Under the pieces are notes generated by a model that saw nothing but the letters and a program-made list of their open reading frames with translations, did not search any database and was not told the DNA's origin. Below, in pieces: positions 19,574 to 36,638 of a stretch of 41,166 nucleotides of DNA. The DNA comes from Synergistaceae bacterium (lineage in GTDB: Bacteria; Synergistota; Synergistia; Synergistales; 79-D21): the NCBI GenBank assembly GCA_012517195.1, contig JAAYVK010000039.1:64085-105250 (forward strand). The letters run 5' to 3'. Numbering within the stretch: the first letter of the stretch is position 1; each line of letters opens with the position of its first letter. Both the position numbers and the translations under genes were made by a program.

Positions 19574-20800
19574 TTAATTGCCCTCCGCCGGGGCGGCTGT
19601 CTTCTCAACCGGGTGTGCCTGCCTCCAGGTTTTGATCGGCAAACCCCAGATCTTGATGAACCCTACCGCTGCCTTGTGATCAAAAGCATCCCCCTCAGAG
19701 TAAGTCGCGAGGTTGTGCTTGTAGAGGGAGCAATCGGACTTCATGCCAACGACGATGGCCTGTCCCTTGAAAAGTTTCACCCTGACAATTCCGGAAACGG
19801 ACTGCTGGGTGTGGTTGAAGAACACATCCAGCGCTTCCTTCAGAGGCGAGAACCAGTATCCCACATAGGTGAGTTCCGCGTATTTTGTCTCCAGATCTTT
19901 CTTCGTCGTCAGAAGATCCTTGCTTAGCGTAAGGGTTTCAAGGGCTTTATGCGCCTGCAGAAGGGTGATTGCCGCCGGGCATTCGTAAACCTCGCGGCTC
20001 TTGAATCCTACGAGCCGGTCCTCGATCATGTCCACGCGTCCCACCCCATGTGCACCGGCGATCTTGTTCAGGGCAAGGATAAGATCGACCCCGCCCATCG
20101 GTTTTCCATTCAAAGCAACGGGGATCCCTTTTTCGAAGGAGATCTCGATTGTTTCGGGCTCATCGGGAGCATTCCAGGGGTCTGCCGTGAGCTTGAAGGC
20201 ATCGGAAGGGGGCTCATTCCAGGGATCCTCAAGGGAGCCGCATTCAATCGACCGGCCCCACATGTTTTCATCGATGCTGTATGGGCTTTGCTTGGTCAGC
20301 GAGACTTCAATTCCGTTCGCGATTGCAAAGTCGATTTCCGCCTCACGGGTGAACTGCCAGTCCCGAACCGGAGCAATGCATTCCAGTTTCGGATTCAGGG
20401 CAGCCGTGCAGACCTCGATCCGGACCTGATCCTGGCCTTTTCCCGTGCAGCCGTGCGCGACGGCCACCGCACCCTCGATTTCAGCCACCTGGGCAAGATA
20501 CTTGGAAATCAACGGCCTTGAAAGCGCTGAATTCAGCGGGTAGGTGCCCTGGTACATTGCGTTGGCCTTCAGGCTGGGCCACACGAAATTCTCGACAAAT
20601 TCCTCCTTGAGATCCATCACGTACGCATTGCAGGCCCCGGTTTTTAGAGCCTTCTCCTTTGTCGCGGCCAGATCCACCGCCTGACCAACGTCTGCCGTCA
20701 TCGTAACGACATCGTACCCCTGCTCCTTAAGCCACAGAATTGCCACAGACGTGTCCAGTCCGCCGCTGTACGCCAAAACGACCTTTCCCTTGTACCCCAT
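19574..20800 (-). CDS. argG: Argininosuccinate synthase
   Basis: MGYKGKVVLAYSGGLDTSVAILWLKEQGYDVV start at 20800; AHGCTGKGQDQVRIE, SIDENMWGRSIECGSLEDPWNEPP. Confidence 0.97.
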   Translation of the reverse strand: MGYKGKVVLAYSGGLDTSVAILWLKEQGYDVVTMTADVGQAVDLAATKEKALKTGACNAYVMDLKEEFVENFVWPSLKANAMYQGTYPLNSALSRPLISKYLAQVAEIEGAVAVAHGCTGKGQDQVRIEVCTAALNPKLECIAPVRDWQFTREAEIDFAIANGIEVSLTKQSPYSIDENMWGRSIECGSLEDPWNEPPSDAFKLTADPWNAPDEPETIEISFEKGIPVALNGKPMGGVDLILALNKIAGAHGVGRVDMIEDRLVGFKSREVYECPAAITLLQAHKALETLTLSKDLLTTKKDLETKYAELTYVGYWFSPLKEALDVFFNHTQQSVSGIVRVKLFKGQAIVVGMKSDCSLYKHNLATYSEGDAFDHKAAVGFIKIWGLPIKTWRQAHPVEKTAAPAEGN

Positions 20801-20821: not shown

Positions 20822-21174
20822 TAAAAAAAGCTCGTCCCTCTCTGGAGGGACGAGCGAAATGCCCGCGGTGCCACCCTTATTGCGGCCGTGCTGGACGGGC
20901 CGCCTCTTTTTGCCCTCTATCGGGGGCAAATCGCGCTCCTACTTGGCATTGCCTTTCTTCGGAGCGGGCTCGGGGGTTCTACTTGACTGCTCTCCATCGA
21001 GAAGCGCTTTCAGCCTCAGGCACTTCCTCTCTGTCGACGAGTTCGCAGCCAGCGCTTCCCTTCATCGCCCTACGGTACGGGTCTTCGATGAAGCAGGCCG
21101 GTCTTATGCGTCTGGCTCGTCTTTCCAGAATCCGAGGCATTCGGCGTTTCTCCTTCCTGAAGTCAATACTAGCA
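20822..21174 (-). promoter_or_regulatory. T-box leader upstream of argG (including terminator hairpin)
   Basis: Minus-strand RNA contains AGAGAGGAAGUGC-CUGAGGCUGAAA-GCGCUUC (distal stem I-like hairpin with GGCUG), CAAGUAGG, AAUAAGGGUGGCACCGCGGG (T-box core) and terminator GCUCGUCCCUC-CAGA-GAGGGACGAGCUUUUUUU. Confidence 0.9.
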
Positions 21175-21180
21175 GCGGAG

Positions 21181-21209
21181 ATTATACAAACCCCCATGGG
21201 CTTTGTCAA
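21181..21209 (-). promoter_or_regulatory. Consensus sigma70 promoter for the argG T-box transcript
   Basis: Minus strand TTGACA (21209-21204), 17-nt spacer, TATAAT (21186-21181). Confidence 0.88.
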
Positions 21210-35815: not shown

Positions 35816-35945
35816 GGAGGTCCCGGGCAGGAAACCCAACTTGCCGTGGCACCCGATGGGATCCGCTTACCGTTGCTTCCTTCCGGACCTGGCGGGGTTT
35901 GCGGGCCTTCGCCGCACGGGGCTGGGTTTCCTGCCTGGGACCTCC
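35816..35945 (-). ncRNA. ffs: Bacterial signal recognition particle RNA (4.5S type)
   Basis: Minus strand GGAGGTCCCAGGCAGGAAACCCA...CCAGGTCCGGAAGGAAGCAAC...TGGGTTTCCTGCCCGGGACCTCC: self-complementary ends and the conserved SRP domain IV motif GGTCCGGAAGGAAGCA. Confidence 0.93.
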
Positions 35946-35957
35946 GGCAGACAAAAA

Positions 35958-36051
35958 TGGCGGAGAGGGAGGGATTTGAACCCTCGGGGCGGGGTTTAGG
36001 CCGCCCACACGCTCTCCAGGCGTGCGCCTTCGACCACTCAGCCACCTCTCC
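35958..36051 (-). tRNA. tRNA-Ser (anticodon GGA)
   Basis: Minus strand GGAGAGGTGGCTGAGTGGTCGAAGGCGCACGCCTGGAGAGCGTG...GAGGGTTCAAATCCCTCCCTCTCCGCCA; loop CTGGAGA, encoded CCA, long variable arm. Confidence 0.95.
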
Positions 36052-36119
36052 GCATGTTCGCTACTTTTAGTTTGGCGGAGAGAGTGGGATTTGAACCCAC
36101 GAGGCGGCTTCAAGACCAC

Positions 36120-36638
<519 letters not shown>

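Follow-up and report, generated by a model that had tools for sequence, protein, structure and literature searches.

In the leader of argG, the argininosuccinate synthase gene of a Synergistaceae bacterium, a T-box appears to be combined with a leader-peptide attenuator, an arrangement that we did not find described in the literature searched. The parts of it that can be read from the sequence are the T-box, an arginine specifier with a matching tRNA, a conserved upstream open reading frame (uORF) with a run of Arg codons, and the complementarity of these codons to the 5′ strand of the T-box Stem I. Going by sequence and folding models, we suggest that the leader probably acts as a transcriptional Arg T-box, the Stem I of which is gated by translation of the overlapping Arg-rich leader peptide. 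A single leader would then sense one amino acid by T-box and by leader peptide alike, with the codons read by the ribosome doubling as RNA able to lock the T-box. If true, this would be a natural logic gate comparing charged with uncharged tRNA.

An arginine T-box ahead of argG

The window, i.e. the whole stretch of 41,166 nucleotides that was analysed, belongs to a draft assembly (1.23 Mb, 94% complete); close relatives of the source genome are labelled as Synergistaceae or Synergistales metagenome-assembled genomes. The argG locus has the following features:

21209-21181, minus strand: sigma-70-type promoter TTGACA-N17-TATAAT (12/12 matches, spacer 17; 0.1 expected by shuffling)
20966-21070, minus strand: T-box Stem I (RF00230 alignment and fold of Stem I alone)
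21066-21062, minus strand: GAUGA motif of Stem I (RF00230 alignment, Stem I fold)
21033-21027, minus strand: AG-bulge motif CAGAGAG of Stem I (RF00230 alignment, Stem I fold)
20980-20978, minus strand: specifier AGA (Arg; RF00230 alignment)
20882-20965, minus strand: Stem II, IIA/B region, and Stem III (RF00230 alignment, sequence)
20845-20878, minus strand: T-box sequence and antiterminator (RF00230 alignment)
20878-20862, minus strand: T-box core AAGGGUGGCACCGCGGG (sequence)
20873-20870, minus strand: UGGC bulge, for a tRNA acceptor end with G73 (alignment, tRNA sequence)
20855-20823, minus strand: intrinsic terminator (stem 20855-20830, then T7)
19574-20800, minus strand: argG, argininosuccinate synthase (Pfam PF00764, PF20979)

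The consensus promoter that had been predicted just past the stop codon of surE (21221; the identity of surE is upheld by Pfam) was found, beginning 11 nt after this stop on the minus strand, and transcription probably starts near 21174. The leader of ~370 nt between promoter and argG is also as predicted: it is closed by the intrinsic terminator, which is followed after a gap of 23 nt by argG, identified by Pfam.

In a search with the covariance model RF00230, which the original prediction had named as a check on its T-box ahead of argG, the model aligns over its full length (1-219) to 21074-20843 with a score of 69.4 bits and an E-value of 5e-15. The score lies under the gathering score of 93, which is why the T-box is absent from a gathering-threshold scan. 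The threshold is exceeded by orthologous argG leaders in which this uORF is present (112, 109.5, 109.3, and 108.7 bits), and the low score at this locus therefore reflects sequence divergence. Folded in isolation, Stem I is predicted to adopt the canonical form; its distal loop reads GGCUGAA. The aligned antiterminator (20878-20845) overlaps the terminator stem (20855-20830), making the two mutually exclusive as judged by sequence only. An argG T-box had been considered unusual in a FadL-bearing organism. T-boxes are present in 130 of 183 Synergistales genomes and are therefore ordinary in this order, which makes an argG T-box in a diderm less odd than had been thought.

The specifier had initially been left undecided between Arg, Glu, and Gly. 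The Arg reading stands, as AGA according to the covariance alignment, and the Glu and Gly readings were rejected on the basis of this alignment and of a synonymous AGA/CGC/CGU pattern. Across Synergistales, Arg codons account for 68 of the 71 specifiers of argG T-box leaders that were read automatically, by a pattern that two AGA leaders from the window's genus escaped; the three non-Arg specifiers look like parsing errors. AGA is the specifier in families f1, f2, f3, f4, f9, and f10 and in most of f5, and CGC or CGU is found mostly in f8. The step from AGA to CGC takes two base changes, the amino acid still being Arg. The genome encodes a tRNA-Arg(UCU) whose 3′ end, G73-CCA, matches the UGGC bulge; the other tRNA-Arg genes read in the genome also have G73, while most non-Arg tRNAs have A73. 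We regard the T-box as near certain, and likewise its specificity for arginine.

T-box specifiers usually end in C. The AGA specifier at 20978-20980 and in relatives departs from this rule, and the CGC of f8 relatives obeys it.

The arginine-rich upstream reading frame

What the original prediction overlooked is a uORF lying 5′ of and across Stem I: the 5′ arm of the extra hairpin it had described ahead of the AGAGAG motif is part of a conserved Arg-rich frame. The features of this frame are:

21150-21155, minus strand: Shine-Dalgarno (SD) sequence AAGGAG of the uORF, 9 nt ahead of its ATG
20979-21140, minus strand: uORF, 53 aa, MPRILERRARRIRPACFIEDPYRRAMKGSAGCELVDREEVPEAESASRWRAVK, identical in start, length, and stop across four species of the genus
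21102-21122, minus strand: Arg run R7 R8 A9 R10 R11 I12 R13 (AGA CGA GCC AGA CGC AUA AGA), presumed stall site

Situated ~180 nt ahead of argG, the uORF crosses Stem I, and its stop codon UAG overlaps the specifier AGA. Its Arg motif can be written as E-RRARRIR-P. For comparison, 110 argG leaders of Synergistales were taken, and an SD-preceded Arg-run frame was seen at nearly all argG T-box leaders of families f1, f2, f3, f4, f8, f9, and f10, which were covered by 25 genera, with AAGGAG or a similar site ahead of the start. The Arg runs of relatives include RRARRIRP, RRVRCERP, ERARRTRRI, and RIRRIRRI, and certain f8 genera retain just three to four Arg codons. The uORF starts 99-114 nt ahead of the AG-bulge motif and stops at -33 to +52 nt from it, in most cases 6-21 nt past it. 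Cultured carriers are Acetomicrobium hydrogeniformans ATCC BAA-1850 (L044) and Synergistota strain L-13 (L051).

In family f5 the T-box, where present, directly follows the promoter, and no Arg-run frame was found in the leaders compared; G116, f7, was likewise without a uORF at its argG T-box. We counted these cases against gating, since there the T-box works, if at all, uORF-free. Many f5 leaders and the f6 leaders showed no T-box motif on the specifier/motif reading.

Codon-level patterns argue that the Arg leader peptide is likely translated. Over 27 genera, Arg codons number 4.56 per 8-codon window, where dinucleotide shuffles give 2.92 (p = 4e-8); no Arg excess over shuffles was seen in a control region (p = 0.94). 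Among 34 distinct aligned sequences, core codon 2 is AGA in 27 and CGA in 6, core codon 3 is CGN with the third base free, and core codon 5 is AGA in 21 and CGA in 13, and thus Arg in 34/34. CGA and AGA together make up 74% of Arg codons in the uORF arms, as against 18% in the genes of the window. In 22 genera, which were picked partly for an SD and a late stop, so that both of the following counts are somewhat biased, the uORF frame is open up to the AG motif in 21 (5 and 2 for the other two frames; 9.3 expected), and an SD of at least 4 nt precedes the start in 21, compared with 13 of 40 starts of other frames. The pN/pS of the uORF is only slightly lower in frame (0.80), a weak signal which we counted against gating and which is perhaps due to constraint on the RNA as well.

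The frame was also looked for at other T-boxes. Among 30 T-box loci from Synergistales, every argG locus except L127 has an Arg-run frame; the one non-argG locus flagged, L131, carries it at a different place and was judged spurious. The thrC and lysW T-boxes of the window's genus have no Arg-rich frame. A sequence pattern of the element gave one match per genome, at argG, in 30 Synergistales genomes, apart from seven extra matches, all in genus g16, that look like chance coding matches; the pattern was absent from five genomes of other orders of the phylum.

Predicted pairing of the Arg codons with Stem I

The extra hairpin noted in the original prediction is correct in its letters and agrees with the predicted fold. 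It is not an addition ahead of Stem I, and represents an alternative to it. We refer to it as the anti-Stem I hairpin, the first helix of which has the following arms:

21116-21121, minus strand: 5′ arm GACGAG, lying in Arg codons 7-9 (fold predictions)
21036-21041, minus strand: 3′ arm CUCGUC, which is also the upper Stem I 5′ strand (pairing probabilities)

A second pairing in the same hairpin joins CUUCAUCG with CGAUGAAG, and the 3′ arm of each pairing is a segment of the Stem I 5′ strand. Because the hairpin uses the GAUGAAG and CUCGUC segments of that strand, it competes with Stem I. It is present in the predicted minimum-energy fold (z = -3.2, with 0/100 shuffles as stable). In the window's leader, CUCGUC is predicted to pair with the uORF arm with a probability of 0.85-0.96; in the full leader the value is 0.96, versus 0.00 for pairing with the Stem I 3′ strand. 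Masking of the uORF arm, to mimic a halted ribosome, gives Stem I a predicted probability of 0.83-0.85.

The same competition is predicted in relatives. Over 25 genera, which are not independent of each other and were folded with a model that ignores K-turns and S-turns, pairing of the Stem I 5′ strand with the uORF arm has a mean predicted probability of 0.68, falling to 0.16 with a shuffled arm (Wilcoxon p = 2e-7) and to 0.26 with an arm swapped in from another family (Wilcoxon p = 2e-6). As the swapped arms retain Arg runs, a lineage-specific fit is needed, which is to be expected if the pairing is maintained. Counted against gating were 5 of 41 leaders in which Stem I is predicted to win over pairing with the uORF.

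The anti-Stem I core CGAGC/GCUCG is nearly invariant across leaders. Column covariation is modest, with 77.1% of cells paired versus 73.5% in shuffles (0/500) and few double changes, one variable position being occupied by CG, UG, UA, AU, and GU. More double changes are seen in a second helix, the register of which differs between f8 and the other families. RNAalifold over all families gave no consensus anti-Stem I, because register and length vary between families; like the modest covariation, this was counted against gating.

Two further tests concerned the strength of the pairing. Matched arms pair better than mismatched ones by duplex energy, with control segments likewise significant, and the test was set aside because it is confounded by base composition. 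The idea that codon choice is generally tuned to pairing strength was rejected, since synonymous recoding of the uORF arm did not make it pair less well than the native codons do, a result also counted against gating.

A proposed gate and its alternatives

We propose the following sequence of events. During transcription the uORF arm would meet the Stem I 5′ strand while the 3′ strand of Stem I is still to be synthesised. If the uORF is empty of ribosomes, or its ribosome has gone by, the Arg-codon segment would capture the Stem I 5′ strand, tRNA could not bind, and the terminator would form. A ribosome running to the uORF stop would sit on Stem I and block it too. When charged tRNA-Arg is scarce, the ribosome would halt at the Arg codons and cover the 5′ arm, allowing Stem I to fold; judging from its presumed footprint, a halted ribosome would cover the leader to roughly -60 from the AG motif, and Stem I (from about -40) would stay free. 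Free Stem I could then bind uncharged tRNA-Arg(UCU), the antiterminator would form, and RNA polymerase would read argG. Expression would thus require two signals together, a shortage of charged tRNA-Arg, read by the ribosome, and the presence of uncharged tRNA-Arg, read by the T-box. We lean, by a modest degree, towards viewing this ribosome-gated T-box as the first case in which leader-peptide translation decides the folding of a tRNA-sensing aptamer, as an AND-type switch that would be order-wide and confined to argG.

The leader might instead be an ordinary Arg T-box, with uORF and hairpin being incidental or with an Arg-rich RNA structure left untranslated. This would be in keeping with the f5 argG T-boxes that lack a uORF and with the weak pN/pS signal, and the K-turns and S-turns of Stem I are poorly handled by structure predictors. 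However, such a reading would have to accommodate an SD-preceded Arg run whose start, in seven families, keeps a constant 99-114 nt from the AG motif downstream, a frame open in 21/22 genera, and synonymous AGA/CGA and CGN switching that structure alone leaves unexplained, and we consider it improbable. Another reading is a translated uORF that serves as a classical attenuator, or as a translation or Rho shield, parallel to the T-box and without control over Stem I folding. The modest column covariation of anti-Stem I agrees with this, as does the Salmonella orf34-speF leader, the Arg codons of which act via Rho, RNase G, and structure at the ribosome-binding site (RBS; PMC6386406). Yet the sole intrinsic terminator of the argG leader is that of the T-box, ~125 nt past the uORF stop, so a stalled ribosome would have no terminator of its own to influence, and in the predictions Stem I is no longer captured when arms are exchanged between families; we therefore regard a parallel device as unlikely.

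In an opposite logic, translation of the uORF would occupy the 5′ arm and be needed for Stem I folding, the Arg codons would serve to slow the ribosome, and the T-box alone would sense arginine. The dominance of the rare, slow codons CGA and AGA fits this, and masking of the 5′ arm is predicted to be sufficient to free Stem I. But the uORF runs into and stops in Stem I in nearly all genera, where a ribosome that did not stall would interfere with Stem I, and the run shares its amino acid with the T-box and the pathway, which leaves the opposite logic very unlikely in our judgement.

The ribosome-gated T-box shares features with several known systems. Firmicutes Arg T-boxes (RF00230) are alike in having a Stem I with GAUGA, AG bulge, GNUG loop, and specifier, in the core and the antiterminator/terminator, and in the codon and discriminator match to tRNA-Arg; the argG leader differs in that its 5′ end is overlapped by an Arg-codon frame able to pair with Stem I. 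With the trp and his leader-peptide attenuators it has in common a short SD-preceded frame and a codon run of the pathway's amino acid that forms one arm of (in argG, predicted) alternative helices, and this run is kept in evolution, as in attenuators. Unlike in trp and his, the alternative helix would control a tRNA-binding aptamer and not the terminator directly: no helix switch acting directly on the intrinsic terminator was found in the argG leader, the uORF helix involving Stem I, and for this reason we describe the leader as attenuator-like without filing it as a classical attenuator.

In Bacillus subtilis rtpA, the one tandem case known to us, a Trp leader peptide follows the T-box and controls rtpA translation. 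An arrangement of this type, with the peptide between T-box and gene, is not what the argG leader has, as its uORF precedes and crosses Stem I and is proposed to control the folding of the T-box itself. The rtpA/yczA (anti-TRAP) leader is described as sensing tRNA-Trp in tandem, at transcription and translation (PMC11255114, PMC4027176, citing Chen & Yanofsky 2003, 2004), and it resembles the argG leader in reading one tRNA through two devices, a T-box and a leader peptide whose codons specify the matching amino acid. The Salmonella orf34-speF leader frame has consecutive rare Arg codons, at which ribosome pausing selects the RNA fold; unlike the argG leader, it controls ornithine decarboxylase via Rho, RNase G, and RBS sequestering, and it has no T-box (PMC6386406). 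The Xanthomonas SAM-I riboswitch senses SAM as well as uncharged initiator tRNA and so likewise integrates two signals in one riboswitch leader, although it is a small-molecule riboswitch and has no leader peptide (PMC7270179).

From one lineage to another, T-box control is described as taking the place of leader-peptide control or the reverse (PMC2965389), and lineage-specific T-box insertions and appendages are listed in a review as open questions (PMC7583486), on which a ribosome-gated T-box would bear. A literature search, conducted mostly without subscription papers, retrieved neither a leader peptide controlling T-box folding nor an argG T-box of Synergistota, and priority is not proven by it.

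Other regulatory loci were seen in passing. The genome has a second T-box ahead of thrC, threonine synthase (L001, G000:C71:3417-3640; also L033, L034), with a Thr-like specifier ACC, a UGGA that matches U73 of tRNA-Thr, and no upstream reading frame. Three relatives (L036, L039, L040) have a weak T-box match (30-35 bits) ahead of a lysW-like gene, which adjoins lysX/argX-like ATP-grasp genes; its candidate specifier is AAG (Lys). High-scoring Synergistales T-boxes also lie ahead of a probable membrane-protein gene (MNKDVSVKVPFAVAFSVGSVLFSAHAGGGFATG; L121, L124, L144) and of an AMP-ligase-like gene (MPITDLLERNAREFC; L128, L129, L131, L147). In the rumen-type genus g16 (L055-L071) and in family f6, neither a T-box motif nor an Arg leader frame could be recognised at argG. 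Elsewhere in the window (35830-36166, minus strand), two tRNA-Ser genes (CGA, GGA) are situated directly ahead of a small SRP RNA gene.
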